This document shows, in pieces, positions 4,063 to 47,920 of a stretch of 64,000 nucleotides of DNA. Every line of letters starts with the position of its first letter. Position 1 is the stretch's first letter. Source of the DNA: Bacteroidales bacterium. Lineage in GTDB: Bacteria > Bacillota > Clostridia > Lachnospirales > Lachnospiraceae. The stretch lies in NCBI GenBank assembly GCA_023664535.1, contig JAMPFJ010000017.1:1-64000 (forward strand). Direction: 5' to 3'. The notes below the pieces were generated by a model. The model did not search any database. It saw nothing but the letters and a program-made list of their open reading frames with translations, and was not told the origin of the DNA. A program made the position numbers and the translations under genes.

Positions 4063-5475
4063 ATGATTTTAACACGGGAAAAGACATTACCGGACGGTTT
4101 TTTATGGGGGGCATCCACCAGCGCTTATCAGGTGGAGGGCGCTAATTTAACGCATGGGAAAGGTCCAAGTATTCAGGATATTAAGAAGGTGCCGGAGGGC
4201 ACCAGTGAATTGGACGTATGCGCTGATTTTTATCATCATTATAAAGAAGATATTGCACTGATGGCGGAGATGGGATTTAAAACTTTTCGGTTTTCTATTG
4301 CATGGTCAAGAATACTTCCGGAGGGAACCGGTGAGGTGAATCCGGAAGGAATTGAATTTTACAATAATGTAATTGACGAGTGCCTGAAGTATGGAATAGA
4401 ACCCCTTGTCACCATGTTCCATTTTGACCTTCCCGCTGCATTGGAGAAAAAGGGCGGATGGTCAAGAAGGGAAAGCATTGACGAGTTTGTCAATTTCGCA
4501 AAGGTCATGTATGAAAATTATGGGGACAGAGTAAAATACTGGCTTACCATCAATGAACAGAATATGCTTACGCTGGTCGGAGAGGTAATCGGAACCTGTA
4601 ATATGGAAGGGGTGACCAATAAGTATAAAAAGCTGTATCAGGAGAATCATCATATGCTTCTTGCGCAGGCAAAAGCGATGAAGCTGTGTCATGAAATGCT
4701 GCCGGGAGCAAAGATTGGACCGGCGCCGAACATCTCCCTGGTTTATCCGGCAAGCTGTAAGCCGCAGGATGTGCTGGCTGCCCAGAATTTTAACGCTATC
4801 CGTAACTGGCTGTATCTGGATATGGCGGTATACGGAAGATATAACAATCTGGTATGGAAGTTTTTAGAAGAGCATGACGCCGTTCCGGAAATGAAAGAGG
4901 ACGATATGCAGATAATGAAAGAGGGGCATCCGGATTTTATCGGATTTAATTATTATTCTACTGCTACGGTGGAATGGGACGACGGCAGCGGAGAAGCCGG
5001 TTCTGTGGACCAGCAGAACGGGGGAAGTGAGCGTGGAGTATATCGTTCTTTTGCCAATCCGAATCTGCTCCGTACAGAATTTGGATGGGAGATTGACCCG
5101 GAAGGCTTCCGGGCAACGATGCGGGAGATGTACAGCCGCTATCATTTGCCGATGATTGTAACAGAAAACGGGCTTGGCGCTTATGATAAGCTGACGGAGG
5201 ATGGAAAAATACATGACAATTACCGGATTGAGTATCTTCGCCGGCATATTGAGCAGATTAAGCTTGCCGTTTCGGAAGGGGTGGAAATGATGGGATACTG
5301 TCCGTGGTCTGCCATTGATTTGATTTCTACCCATGAGGGGATGGTAAAGCGTTATGGATTTATTTATGTGAACCGTGAAGAGTTTGATTTAAAGGATATG
5401 GCGCGTTACCGCAAGGACTCCTTCTACTGGTATAAAAAGGTCATTGAGACAAACGGAAAAGATTTGGCGGATTAA
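4063..5475 (+). CDS. GH1 6-phospho-beta-glucosidase
   Basis: This is a 470-residue glycoside hydrolase family 1 enzyme, the normal length for the family. It opens with 'FLWGASTSAYQVEGA'. The acid/base glutamate is E165 in 'TINEQN' and the nucleophile is E368 in 'IVTENG'. At the aglycone-distal end it reads 'IDLISTHEGMVKRYGFIYV'. Plain beta-glucosidases have a glutamate at the position of S422 here and F at the position of Y431, so the Ser...Lys-x-Tyr set (S422, K429, Y431) marks a 6-phospho-beta-glucosidase. The start at 4063 is fixed by AGGAGG seven nucleotides upstream; a TTG at 4057 is too close. It probably cleaves the product of the upstream ROK kinase in the cytoplasm. No PTS or transporter gene is next to it. 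Confidence 0.92.
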   Translation: MILTREKTLPDGFLWGASTSAYQVEGANLTHGKGPSIQDIKKVPEGTSELDVCADFYHHYKEDIALMAEMGFKTFRFSIAWSRILPEGTGEVNPEGIEFYNNVIDECLKYGIEPLVTMFHFDLPAALEKKGGWSRRESIDEFVNFAKVMYENYGDRVKYWLTINEQNMLTLVGEVIGTCNMEGVTNKYKKLYQENHHMLLAQAKAMKLCHEMLPGAKIGPAPNISLVYPASCKPQDVLAAQNFNAIRNWLYLDMAVYGRYNNLVWKFLEEHDAVPEMKEDDMQIMKEGHPDFIGFNYYSTATVEWDDGSGEAGSVDQQNGGSERGVYRSFANPNLLRTEFGWEIDPEGFRATMREMYSRYHLPMIVTENGLGAYDKLTEDGKIHDNYRIEYLRRHIEQIKLAVSEGVEMMGYCPWSAIDLISTHEGMVKRYGFIYVNREEFDLKDMARYRKDSFYWYKKVIETNGKDLAD

Positions 5476-9630: not shown

Positions 9631-12093
9631 ATGGCAGCAGATAAATATCATAGAAAAGAAGTTGAAGAGATGGGTTTATTAGATGCAGAGATAATTGAAG
9701 ATTTGTTACATAGCTCCAGTATTTCCAAGGGAATTGAGCGAACCATGGAAAGAATGATTAACGAGTTAGAGATTGATAGCATGTATATTATTCGTTATGA
9801 AGAGGATATTTTTCAGCCGGAGACGGTTTTTGACTGGGAAAGCGGAGAAAAGGAGAGAGGGATTGACTTTCTGTCCTATATTAAGCGGATTGAAGAGTGG
9901 TATCATTTCGACGAGGAGGACATGTTTGTTGCGAGGGCGACAACGGTTCTTCCGTCTGCGGAAAAACAATTTTATCTGGAATGCGGTTATGAAGCGGCAG
10001 TGGAATACCGGATGACAAATCATGGAAAGGCGATTGGCTATATCCTGATTGGATGGAACCGGATTAAGGATTTATCGGATGAAGATTTGAATGCCATTCA
10101 TATATTGCTGAAGCTGATGAATGAGAAATTAATCGGGTTGTTCCACAGGGATATCATGGGAGAAAATGACTGGCATTTATTCAAGCTGTTAGGCAATATG
10201 ACCGGAACAATGCTTTATATGATTGATGAGGATTATAAAATCCAGTACTGCAACAGCTATGCAAGGAAGGAATACCCGGACATAAAAGCGGGAGACTATT
10301 GTTATAAGGCACTGCAAAAGAAAGGAGAGCCCTGTAAAAATTGTCCGATTCGGGAACTGGAGGGACAGCAGATGGTTGAGGCAAACATCTACCTGTCCTA
10401 TCTGGAGGATTCCTTTCATACCTGTTTTACCGAGATTCAAACGCAGGATAACCGGAACGGCTATGCATTGACCCTGCAAAGGTTATCGGATTTAAGCATG
10501 GTGGAAAAGAATGGGATAACCGGGAAAAAGTTTATTTTTGCCCTGCAGCATTTGTATAAGGATATTATTGCAGTAGAGCTGCGAAGGGATAACTTTTATA
10601 ATCTGATTACAGAAAATGTGGAAAATAAATATTCTTATAGCCTGGATTTTGTATTGAAATGGCTTTCAAAGGTGCATCTGGATGACAAACAGAAATTTCT
10701 GGAATGCTTTGATATCAGTTTTTTGCAGAATGACTATGCCGCAGGGATAAAGCAAAAGGAGATTGATTTCCGGTACAGGACCCATGAAGGAAGTTATCAT
10801 TGCATGAATGGTCAGATTTTATTTGAACAGAATATAAATAAAGACGTTATGGCATTTATTTTGTTTCAGGATGTGGAGCAGATTCGGAGCGTTCAGATTG
10901 AGGAATACAAGCAGCTTCGGGATTCGCTAATGGCGGCAAGGTCTTCGGCGGAGTTAAAGGGACAGGTTCTCGCCAACATTTCCCATGAGATACGTAATCC
11001 GATGGGCGGCATTATCAGTATGTCCAGCGTAGCCAGGCAGGTATATAAAAATGAAGAACGCCTGCTGGAATGTCTGTCCAATATTGATGATTATGCGGAC
11101 CATATGATGCAGGTGATGGATTCCTTGCTGGAAACGGTGAAGGTGGATGATAATGCCATTATTATTGCCAGACAGCCATTCCGTCTGGAGAGCTTGCTAA
11201 ATAACGTAGATATTGTGGTCAGAGAGAAAATCGAGAAGAAAAATGTGCAGTTTTATGTGGATTCCTATTGCCAGTACAACCAGCTGTTAGGGGATGCAAT
11301 AAGGCTTCAGCAGGCGCTTACCTATCTGATAAACAATGCCGTTTCCTATGTTCCCATTTCAGGAGAAATACGGCTTACGGCAAAACAGGTGGCGGTAGAC
11401 AGCAAAACTGTATACATCCGGTTTTTTCTGGATGATACAGGAAACGGAATGACGGAAAAAATGAAAAAAAGTATTTTCGGCTTTTCCAATGATATGGAAA
11501 ACGGCATTATTGAGGAGCAGCATTTTGATTTATCACTGGCTTCCAGAATTGTGCAGCTAATGGGCGGGCAGATTGGTATGGAAATTAACGGAAGCGGAAC
11601 CCATTTAAATTTTACGCTGCCCTTTGAATTGCAGGAGCAGGAAAAAAATAAGTCGTCAAAGCGAAAAAAGGCTTCAGAGACAGGAAACTTTGACGGTAAA
11701 AAAATTCTGCTTGCAGAGGACAGCGACTTAGCGCAGGATGCAATCCGGGCAGTGCTGGAGATTGTCGGCTTTACCGTTGACACGGTAGAGAACGGAAGAA
11801 AAGCGGTTGTGCGCTTTGTTTCCCAGCCTGCATTTACCTATGATGCAATTCTTATGGACGTGCATATGCCGTTTATGGACGGGAGGGAAGCAACAAAATG
11901 TATCCGGATATCCGGCAAGGAGGATGGCGAAACGATACCGATAATCGGATTGATGGCGAATACCTATGACCAGGATATTGAGGAGTCTTTAAAGGCGGGC
12001 ATGCAGGCACATTTGGCAAAGCCGGTGGATGTGGATACGTTATACCGGGTATTAAAAAAGGTTATTCCGGATAAGGAAGAGCAGCCGGAATGA
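9631..12093 (+). CDS. Hybrid sensor histidine kinase/response regulator
   Basis: The 820-residue cytoplasmic protein has a GAF-like N-terminal sensory region (about 1-180), a PAS-like region with a CxxC pair (about 190-290, 'CKNCPIRE') and a second PAS-like region (300-430). A HisKA domain with phosphoacceptor H452 ('ANISHEIRNPMGG') and an HATPase domain follow. The C-terminal receiver has phosphoacceptor D743 ('MDVHMP') and K797. No membrane helix is seen. The HATPase is unusual: the G1 box 'DDTGNGM' is kept, but where the G2 box G-x-G-L normally stands it reads 'HFDLSLASRIVQLMGG'. No HPt domain is attached. The start is uncertain; an ATG at 9670 is in frame and neither has a strong ribosome site. 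Confidence 0.85.
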   Translation: MAADKYHRKEVEEMGLLDAEIIEDLLHSSSISKGIERTMERMINELEIDSMYIIRYEEDIFQPETVFDWESGEKERGIDFLSYIKRIEEWYHFDEEDMFVARATTVLPSAEKQFYLECGYEAAVEYRMTNHGKAIGYILIGWNRIKDLSDEDLNAIHILLKLMNEKLIGLFHRDIMGENDWHLFKLLGNMTGTMLYMIDEDYKIQYCNSYARKEYPDIKAGDYCYKALQKKGEPCKNCPIRELEGQQMVEANIYLSYLEDSFHTCFTEIQTQDNRNGYALTLQRLSDLSMVEKNGITGKKFIFALQHLYKDIIAVELRRDNFYNLITENVENKYSYSLDFVLKWLSKVHLDDKQKFLECFDISFLQNDYAAGIKQKEIDFRYRTHEGSYHCMNGQILFEQNINKDVMAFILFQDVEQIRSVQIEEYKQLRDSLMAARSSAELKGQVLANISHEIRNPMGGIISMSSVARQVYKNEERLLECLSNIDDYADHMMQVMDSLLETVKVDDNAIIIARQPFRLESLLNNVDIVVREKIEKKNVQFYVDSYCQYNQLLGDAIRLQQALTYLINNAVSYVPISGEIRLTAKQVAVDSKTVYIRFFLDDTGNGMTEKMKKSIFGFSNDMENGIIEEQHFDLSLASRIVQLMGGQIGMEINGSGTHLNFTLPFELQEQEKNKSSKRKKASETGNFDGKKILLAEDSDLAQDAIRAVLEIVGFTVDTVENGRKAVVRFVSQPAFTYDAILMDVHMPFMDGREATKCIRISGKEDGETIPIIGLMANTYDQDIEESLKAGMQAHLAKPVDVDTLYRVLKKVIPDKEEQPE

Positions 12094-45660: not shown

Positions 45661-46758
45661 GTGAAAAAAAGTACGATTTTGGGCATCGCTTTTATGACGG
45701 CAGGCGCAATCAGCACGCTGGGCAGTTCATTTGTCAGCCATGCGGAGGTGTTGGATGATACCACTACCGGTATTACCTATGCATTGGATAAATATGTAGA
45801 GAATCTGGCGGTAAAGGAAATAAAAGAGGAGGATGTCCAAAAGGAGGAAGCTCCCACCTGCAAATATCCGGAGTTTGAGGGAAAATGTCTGGCTTATGTG
45901 GAAGAGGCAGTAAATGTACGAAAAGAGCCGGATGAAAATTCGGAACGCGTAGGCAGTCTTCCGGTGCACGGTATTGCTTTAGTTGTAGAAAAAGGTGATA
46001 CATGGACGAAGATTGAGTCCGGCATTACGCTGGGTTATGTCAGAAACGATTATCTCCTGTTCGGGGATGCGGCAGGTTCATATGCGGAACAGACCTGTCC
46101 AAAGGTGGCAAAGGTAAATACCACTACGCTTTATGTCCGTGCAGGGCAGGATGAGACCAGTGATTGTCTGACCATGATACCGGAGGGAGAATCCTATGAG
46201 GTTATCCCGCGGGATAATGATGTGGACGGCTGGACATATATTCGTGTAGATTCGGATATCGAGGGATATGTGTCTTCTGATTATGTAGATATTTCTTATG
46301 GATTTTCTCATGCACTTTCCGTGGCGGAGGAAGAAGAGATTCGGAGGCGTGAGGAAGAAGCGGCGGCAGCAAGGCTTGCAGAAATGACAAGCTCAAGGCG
46401 GCAGGAGGTTGTCAATTATGCTCTCCAGTTTGTCGGCAATCCATATGTATATGGAGGAACCAGTCTGACCAACGGTACAGACTGTTCGGGCTTTACGATG
46501 AGCGTGTATGCGCATTTCGGATATGGGCTTCCGCGGACAGCGGCAGCACAGATGCAGGGATTATCCAGTGTGGATTTAGCGTCCATCCAGCCGGGAGATT
46601 TGCTGTTTTACCGGGGCTCTGACGGCTCGATTGGTCACGTGACCATGTATATCGGCGGCGGGCAGGTGGTTCATGCCAGCAGCAGTACAACCGGAATTAT
46701 TATTTCTAATGTAGGTTACCGTACTCCTTGTGGAGCAGCAAGAATAATTTGGGATTGA
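45661..46758 (+). CDS. Secreted SH3-NlpC/P60 peptidoglycan hydrolase
   Basis: The 365-residue protein has a signal peptide ('ILGIAFMTAGAISTLGSSFVSHAE'). Two bacterial SH3 domains follow: about 75-130 'AVNVRKEPDENSERVGSLPVHG' and about 145-205 'TLYVRAGQDETSDCLTMIPEGESY'. A charged coiled-coil linker ('EEEEIRRREEEAAAARLAE') leads to a C-terminal NlpC/P60 domain with the cysteine in 'NGTDCSGFTMSVY', histidine in 'IGHVTMYIG' and a third residue in 'QVVHASSS'. It should cut D-Glu-diamino acid bonds in peptidoglycan. The start is GTG at 45661 with GGAGGAAG upstream. Confidence 0.94.
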   Translation: MKKSTILGIAFMTAGAISTLGSSFVSHAEVLDDTTTGITYALDKYVENLAVKEIKEEDVQKEEAPTCKYPEFEGKCLAYVEEAVNVRKEPDENSERVGSLPVHGIALVVEKGDTWTKIESGITLGYVRNDYLLFGDAAGSYAEQTCPKVAKVNTTTLYVRAGQDETSDCLTMIPEGESYEVIPRDNDVDGWTYIRVDSDIEGYVSSDYVDISYGFSHALSVAEEEEIRRREEEAAAARLAEMTSSRRQEVVNYALQFVGNPYVYGGTSLTNGTDCSGFTMSVYAHFGYGLPRTAAAQMQGLSSVDLASIQPGDLLFYRGSDGSIGHVTMYIGGGQVVHASSSTTGIIISNVGYRTPCGAARIIWD

Positions 46759-46808: not shown

Positions 46809-46927
46809 GTTTAGGTAATACGAACCCCAATATCTTGAGTTGCTATACAATTTTTTAATTGTTTTTAAATTATCTTATTATTTATTTTTTGTTTGTCCAT
46901 ATCGCTTTGGGTGAAATGCACAAAAAA

Positions 46928-47144
46928 TAATCCACATTATCCACTTTTTAAAGTGGATAATATTATGTAAAGTGATTATGAAATCTAGTTTTGCACAAAA
47001 AAAAGCGGGAAAAAGCTTGTAAACAGGACTTATGCACAGAGTTATCCACATTATCCACAAAAAAAGGCCGGATATTTTGGAAAAAAGTGGGAGGAAATAA
47101 GAATGCACGTTCTGTATAAAATGCCGAAAAAAAACTTATCCCAA
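46928..47144. other. Cluster of DnaA-box-like 9-mers
   Basis: Matches to the DnaA box TTWTNCACA and near matches are: 46928-46936 TAATCCACA, 46937-46945 TTATCCACT, 46952-46960 the same on the - strand, 46989-46997 TTTTGCACA, 47030-47038 TTATGCACA, 47042-47050 and 47051-47059 TTATCCACA (perfect, head to tail), and a weak TTATCCCAA at 47136-47144. The pair at 46937-46960 is a perfect palindrome with 11-bp arms. The surroundings are A/T-rich. This could be an origin-like element, a DnaA-titrating cluster or a DnaA-controlled leader. No dnaA, dnaN, parA or parB is in the window. Confidence 0.75.
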
Positions 47145-47250
47145 AAATAAATTGACAAATAAAATGTCGAATAACGTAGGATAAATAATGAAGTTGACAG
47201 ACATTTTGCGATTAAAGGCAAAAAAATCAAGAAGATTTTGCAGTTATAGA

Positions 47251-47278
47251 TTGAAAAAAATACAAGATATGGTATAAT
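47251..47278 (+). promoter_or_regulatory. hpf promoter
   Basis: TTGAAA (47251-47256) and TATAAT (47273-47278) are 16 nt apart and lie about 115 nt before the hpf start. The long leader contains no recognisable riboswitch. Confidence 0.65.
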
Positions 47279-47392: not shown

Positions 47393-47920
47393 ATGAAATA
47401 TATAATTAGTGGAAAGAATATTGAAGTGACGGAAGGATTGAAAGCATCTGTTTATGACAAGCTGGGGAGGCTGGAAAAATATTTTAATGAAGATACAGAG
47501 GTTCAGGTAACATTTTCTGTGGAGAAGGACAGACAGAAGATGGAGGTAACGATTCCGATTAAGGGGAATATTATTCGGGCAGAGCAGGTAAGCGACGATA
47601 TGTATGTATCCATTGATTTGGTGACGGAGGTGATTGAGCGCCAAATTTCCAGACATAAAAAGAAACTGGTAGACCAGGCACAGAGCGCTGCTTTTTTGCA
47701 GAAATCATTTATGGAGGAAGATATCCCGGACGATGACGAGATTAATATTATCCGAAGCAAAAAATTTGCAGTGAAGCCGATGGACCCGGAAGAGGCATGC
47801 GTACAGATGGATTTGCTGGGGCACAGCTTCTTTGTATTCCGTAATTCGGAGACGGATGAAGTAAACGTAGTCTATAAGAGAAAAGGAAACACATACGGTT
47901 TGATTGAACCGGAGTGCTGA
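47393..47920 (+). CDS. hpf: Ribosome hibernation promoting factor (long form)
   Basis: The 175-residue protein is a long-form HPF. The N-terminal domain (about 1-95) begins 'KYIISGKNIEVTEGLKASVYDKLGRLEKYF' and binds in the small-subunit decoding region. The C-terminal domain ('KKFAVKPMDPEEACVQMDLLGHSFFVFRNSETDEVNVVYKRKGNTYGLIEP') drives 100S ribosome dimers. AAGGAG is about 9 nt before ATG 47393; the TTG at 47384 directly abuts it. It is monocistronic, with its own terminator. Confidence 0.95.
   Translation: MKYIISGKNIEVTEGLKASVYDKLGRLEKYFNEDTEVQVTFSVEKDRQKMEVTIPIKGNIIRAEQVSDDMYVSIDLVTEVIERQISRHKKKLVDQAQSAAFLQKSFMEEDIPDDDEINIIRSKKFAVKPMDPEEACVQMDLLGHSFFVFRNSETDEVNVVYKRKGNTYGLIEPEC

Follow-up and report, generated by a model that had tools for sequence, protein, structure and literature searches.

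A conserved one-direction array of DnaA boxes outside the replication origin of Lachnospiraceae, a candidate datA-like locus

Upstream of hpf in a Lachnospiraceae genome lies a cluster of seven DnaA-box-like 9-mers, four of which form a conserved core of boxes pointing in one direction, with starts at 0, +41, +53 and +62 (boxes 1 to 4). From its geometry, its changing neighbors and its place on the chromosome, we consider it probable that this is a conserved off-origin, origin-side DnaA-binding locus that, in the manner of datA, would act on replication initiation and not on hpf; such a site probably regulates how often the chromosome is copied. The cluster occupies part of a 634-bp gap in the stretch of DNA that we analyzed (the window; 64,000 nucleotides, positions 1 to 64,000 of contig JAMPFJ010000017.1, assembly GCA_023664535.1), with an SH3-NlpC/P60 gene on one side and hpf, then secA, on the other. 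The features of the region are as follows.

45661..46758, + strand: SH3-NlpC/P60 gene (PF00877 and PF08239), also found upstream of many arrays that lack hpf
46914..46927, + strand: box 0, a degenerate half box AAATGCACAAAAAA; TGCACAAA is kept in close relatives and sits at a similar place in distant loci
46928..46936, + strand: near DnaA box TAATCCACA, lineage-specific
46937..46960, no strand: palindrome of two near boxes TTATCCACT, lineage-specific
46962..46983, + strand: block ATTATGTAAAGTGATTATGAAA, kept in the window's close relatives; the TATGTAAA within it is seen again at the oriC of this genome
46989..46997, + strand: DnaA box 1 TTTTGCACA (TTATCCACA in the majority of distant relatives), 53 bp ahead of box 3 (52-54 across relatives)
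46998..47029, no strand: spacer between boxes 1 and 2, conserved in length, mostly variable in sequence
47030..47038, + strand: DnaA box 2 TTATGCACA, usually 12 bp ahead of box 3
47042..47050, + strand: DnaA box 3 TTATCCACA
47051..47059, + strand: DnaA box 4 TTATCCACA, directly abutting box 3
47101..47115, + strand: second element GAATGCACGTTCTGT, GAAY-N4-GTTYTGT, LexA-box-like
47251..47278, + strand: likely hpf promoter TTGAAA-N16-TATAAT, (nearly) invariant in close relatives, about 190 bp after box 4
47393..47920, + strand: hpf, long-form ribosome hibernation factor (PF02482 and PF16321); a neighbor, probably not the target

The original prediction, made from the letters of the window, had described at least seven DnaA-box-like 9-mers here, and seven are present between 46928 and 47059, each within one mismatch of TTWTNCACA: four exact copies, all on the + strand (46989, 47030, 47042 and 47051), and three with one mismatch (46928, 46937 and, on the - strand, 46952). 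The two perfect head-to-tail copies it named are the abutting TTATCCACA at 47042 and 47051, and its two-box palindrome is real as well, a 24-bp TTATCCACTTT-TT-AAAGTGGATAA whose 11-bp arms are the near boxes at 46937 and 46952. Only some 7 of 17 close relatives retain the palindrome, however, and it is a local, lineage-specific addition; the deeply conserved portion of the region comprises 46989-47059 together with 47101-47115. The surroundings were also described as A/T-rich, which is correct in that the cluster region is 68% A/T, although it is no richer than the intergenic gap as a whole (68%).

The motif TTATNCACA occurs nine times in the window, compared with 2.4 expected, and none of 100 shuffles reached nine. 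It is over-represented across the genome too, with 182 occurrences versus 73 for the reversed pattern, and a cluster assembled by chance from 9-mers in A/T-rich DNA could draw on this abundance of single copies. Searching the 2.86-Mb genome for same-strand TTATNCACA pairs no more than 30 bp apart, we found them only at this site (two) and at oriC (one), and the same search with the reversed control pattern returned no pairs; the worry that a genome-wide count would turn up similar clusters elsewhere was thus not borne out. The enrichment, this uniqueness in the genome, the conserved geometry and the family-wide occurrence described below all argue against chance accumulation, to which we assign a negligible probability, and the spacing conserved in relatives refutes it.

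That spacing was measured on 80 hpf loci picked by HPF protein similarity alone, of which 71 were non-redundant and had enough upstream sequence. Upstream of hpf in these 71 loci we counted 252 same-strand boxes with at most one mismatch, compared with 28 in shuffled sequence, and the distances between them recur at 12 (54 times), 9 (51), 21 (43), 53 (21), 41 (20) and 62 bp (20), whereas no spacing was seen more than twice in any of 50 shuffles. Scored against a four-box template, most hpf-upstream regions reach 27-36 of 36, while 338 other 700-bp stretches from the same loci reach at most 25. All four core boxes run the same way, both in the window and in the majority of relatives, with inverted boxes confined to some lineages. 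In alignments the boxes are nearly invariant, and the spacer between boxes 1 and 2 is constant in length but not in sequence, so that the boxes are conserved while the sequence between them diverges, in line with the sign of function that had been proposed; the converse outcome, a lack of conservation in relatives, was not observed. Conserved boxes joined by a spacer conserved only in length are the trace that an ordered protein-DNA complex would be expected to leave.

A sequence-only model of the array, R1, ends three bases after box 4. Within the family, 341 of 396 genomes have a match to R1 at E<=0.001, representing 279 of 317 genera; the 55 genomes lacking a match count against the explanation that we favor. 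A class-wide sample yielded matches in 212 of 392 genomes; these score lower, and their spacing differs in part (44 bp in one family). Some of the weak matches may be origins or chance. Loci found with R1 fit its box pattern by construction, and the bias-free test of geometry is therefore the set of spacings upstream of the HPF-chosen loci.

The original prediction had also offered DnaA control of ribosome hibernation and secretion genes. According to this alternative, the main task of DnaA at the site would be to regulate transcription of hpf-secA, and perhaps of the upstream nlpC, tying DnaA level or replication state to hibernation and secretion. The boxes are indeed intergenic and upstream of the hpf promoter, and among the best 75 family loci hpf is the next co-oriented gene in 41, which is more than a pure titration site requires. 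The linkage also extends outside the family: hpf adjoins nine of the 28 loci taken from the class-wide search, three of them extrafamilial (L257, L261 and L265), one with an HPF only 47% identical. The remaining 34 of the best 75 arrays, however, lack a downstream hpf (two of these loci end too early to tell), and 11 of the 75 have neither hpf nor the NlpC/P60 gene beside them. Flanking genes of unlinked arrays include nlpC/P60, trxB, wecG/tagA, trmB, a PucR-type regulator, mecA and others. Conversely, in 12 complete genomes whose hpf has no array, we found no DnaA-box cluster upstream of hpf (one has a single TTTTTCACA), and 10 of the 12 carry the array or a likely copy of it elsewhere. An hpf operator predicts boxes at a set distance from the hpf promoter, and both the variable array-to-hpf distance (141 to 453 bp in the best 75 family loci, with about 190 bp to the likely promoter here) and the persistence of array and gene without each other weaken the operator reading, which we regard as unlikely. 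By these comparisons, the array is not tied to hpf.

Several further observations concern the same neighborhood. In five loci (L200, L214, L221, L229 and L230), hpf remains downstream of the array, with secA beyond the array's opposite end and in the reverse orientation. Between the array and the hpf promoter, TTGACAAATAAAATGTCGAA, which contains a Spo0A-type TGTCGAA (window 47152-47171), is strongly conserved in close relatives. An RNA leader over the site was considered and rejected, as Rfam gave one sub-threshold match, to an L20 leader, on the terminator of the upstream gene.

Downstream of the boxes, a second element accompanies the array. GAA-N5-GTTYTG follows 60 of 109 non-redundant arrays, compared with 0.05 expected from shuffling, and 56 of these 60 elements lie 41-45 bp after box 4, nearly all of them at 41-44 bp. 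Within the family, the looser GAA-N5-GTTY is present at 20 of 32 hpf-unlinked and 18 of 36 hpf-linked arrays, and the GTTYTG half alone at 28 of the 32 unlinked ones. Since this element lies outside R1 yet is equally frequent at unlinked arrays, it identifies them as the same module independently of the model that found them. Most copies fit a LexA-box palindrome, GAAY-N4-GTTY, and the clostridial LexA box has the consensus GAACN4GTTT (PMC4234289). In arrays the element is followed by TG in 57 of 61 cases, whereas boxes at the lexA promoters of relatives are followed by G in 40 of 46; judged on these sequences the element is LexA-box-like but distinct from lexA operators. An adjacent lexA as the source of the GAAC-N4-GTT element was rejected, the neighbors of unlinked arrays being other genes. 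We did not find the element at oriC in the dnaA-flanking stretches examined, several of which are incomplete. At the lexA promoters of the window's genus (L285, and L290 from contig C23 of the window's own genome), three or four LexA-type boxes overlap at a 13-bp pitch.

Another motif, TTTACATA, follows box 4 at a distance of about 22 bp in many unlinked arrays and is found, inverted, upstream of box 1 in close relatives of the window (window 46962-46971). As TTTACATA/TATGTAAA it recurs next to the DnaA boxes of the array, at loci such as L107, L112 and L193, and of this genome's own oriC (L092, about 10022-10031), and another replication-related protein may bind there.

DnaA boxes clustered in A/T-rich DNA, with a conserved ATTATGTAAA beside them that is shared with oriC, could mark a secondary or displaced replication origin, as the original prediction had allowed. 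In line with that prediction, dnaA is absent from the window; its sole copy is on contig C10, with oriC boxes beside it in rpmH-dnaA. As had been proposed, we computed GC skew together with the position of dnaA: the skew changes sign at rpmH-dnaA, away from the array, and is positive throughout the window. The absence of a skew change here and the flip at rpmH-dnaA indicate that the site is not an origin. By eye, alignments contain no conserved unwinding-type A/T block or DnaA-trio after box 4, and no replication gene travels with the array among the neighbors examined. A second origin is rejected on the skew and on the lack, by eye, of a conserved unwinding block, and we hold it to be highly improbable. 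Positive skew makes the + strand the leading strand, and the boxes therefore point away from oriC.

The window's own assembly consists of 51 unordered contigs, and array positions were measured in other genomes: dnaA, hpf and the array were placed in 19 near-complete genomes, three with more than one contig and three with rounded lengths. The array is at hpf in 10 of the 19 and elsewhere in nine, and it points away from oriC in 17. Distances from dnaA to the nine unlinked arrays are 1.4, 1.8, 1.9, 2.1, 3.6, 4.2, 4.5, 5.1 and 15.8% of genome length (median 3.6%), whereas hpf in the same nine genomes, with no box cluster (in one, a single TTTTTCACA), lies 8.6-39.6% away (median 29.8%). Tests of this difference (Wilcoxon p 0.004, KS p 2e-6) ignore kinship and are too optimistic; a DnaA tree implies about three independent changes among the nine unlinked genomes, six of which fall in one clade, and the p-values must be discounted on that account. 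In two genomes with an hpf-linked array, 26-31% of the genome separates it from dnaA, which makes closeness to the origin a trend rather than a rule. Fixed geometry, indifference to neighbors and a bias toward oriC are what a replication-control locus would be expected to show, and all three are seen, the last as a tendency.

Two other runs of box-like sequences were noted in complete relatives. Tandem TTATCCACATTATCCACA lies between murC and genes for a DnaB_2/DnaD-like protein and a DnaC/DnaI-like helicase loader in L183, L184, L186 and L179 (about 4880-5350), which suggests DnaA control of helicase-loader genes. In three complete genomes (L180, L181 and L182, about 5040-5240), three DnaA-box-like 9-mers fall within a long reading frame, a run probably maintained by protein coding.

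Among known systems, E. coli datA, the locus of datA-dependent DnaA-ATP hydrolysis, offers a close set of parallels: it too is a non-coding box cluster outside oriC, with boxes in one direction and a second protein's site (a probable one in the array) within the locus. The essential boxes of datA share directionality at optimized intervals, and moving datA to the terminus impairs it (PMC5742627). datA is origin-side, and the array leans the same way, with a median of 3.6% from dnaA in the nine unlinked genomes, although hpf-linked arrays reach 31%. There are differences as well. Minimal datA spans 262 bp with other spacing. Its function depends on IHF, at a site between the boxes, and B. subtilis has no IHF (PMC13220808). 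The second element of the array is not of the IHF type and is placed beyond the boxes. We do not claim membership in datA proper. In Streptomyces coelicolor, of another phylum, a datA-like cluster outside oriC is cited as repressing untimely initiation (in PMC5742627).

DnaA-box clusters of B. subtilis (Okumura et al. 2012) are likewise off-origin in a Firmicute and have been described as oriC-proximal, and deletion of all six is reported to cause early initiation (PMC5295017; PMC13220808). The one-direction boxes of the array are compatible, by analogy, with these clusters (PMC5295017). As described, B. subtilis has six redundant clusters, compared with usually one main array here, and the descriptions that we compared make no mention of a shared four-box geometry or a partner element. 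An in vitro DnaA-binding study (PMC4447404) has no hpf/yvyD site. Clostridial oriC1/oriC2 share clusters of TTWTNCACA boxes with the array (PMC7561715) but flank dnaA and carry a DnaA-trio and an unwinding region, whereas the array lies away from dnaA with no skew change.

The likeness to E. coli DARS1 and DARS2 raises the opposite activity, a site that would reactivate ADP-DnaA and promote initiation. These, too, are off-origin clusters with a fixed-spacing core and sites for regulatory proteins, and the array resembles DARS2 in having a putative regulatory element a set distance away. In both DARS cores, however, box I points the opposite way to boxes II and III (PMC5742627), while the four core boxes of the array run one way, inverted boxes occur in some lineages only, and the array tends toward oriC; we therefore judge a DARS-like role improbable. 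Titration or reactivation had been proposed together, and the evidence divides them: one-direction geometry, retention across changes of neighbor and origin-side placement favor the datA-like half, and box orientation speaks against the DARS half.

For the datA-like locus that we favor, a mechanism can be proposed. DnaA would assemble head-to-tail on boxes 2-4, and box 1, about five helical turns upstream, could be brought in by bending of the sequence-variable spacer. Being mostly origin-side, the locus would be doubled early after initiation, and the doubled locus would bind, and perhaps inactivate, free DnaA, delaying re-initiation as with datA and the B. subtilis clusters. A second factor, probably on GAAY-N4-GTTYTGT about 42 bp downstream, could modulate the complex. 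A bolder extension, which we put forward tentatively and hold at somewhat below even chances, is that array and element form one undescribed composite locus: a four-box DnaA array at fixed distance from the site of a second protein (LexA or a new factor), serving as a dedicated initiation switch and the Firmicute counterpart of datA/DARS. Most Lachnospiraceae, and some of the wider Clostridia, would carry about one such locus in each genome.

Our searches of the open-licence literature turned up neither a paper that connects DnaA boxes to hpf nor one about off-origin DnaA clusters in Lachnospiraceae. According to a recent review, B. subtilis has none of datA, DARS1 and DARS2, and whether regulators of the DnaA-ADP/DnaA-ATP balance exist there is unknown (PMC13220808). 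If our reading is true, the array, conserved through a very large family of gut bacteria, would offer a defined target of about 130 bp for examining DnaA-ADP/DnaA-ATP regulation in Clostridia, with the second element as a lead to a regulator.
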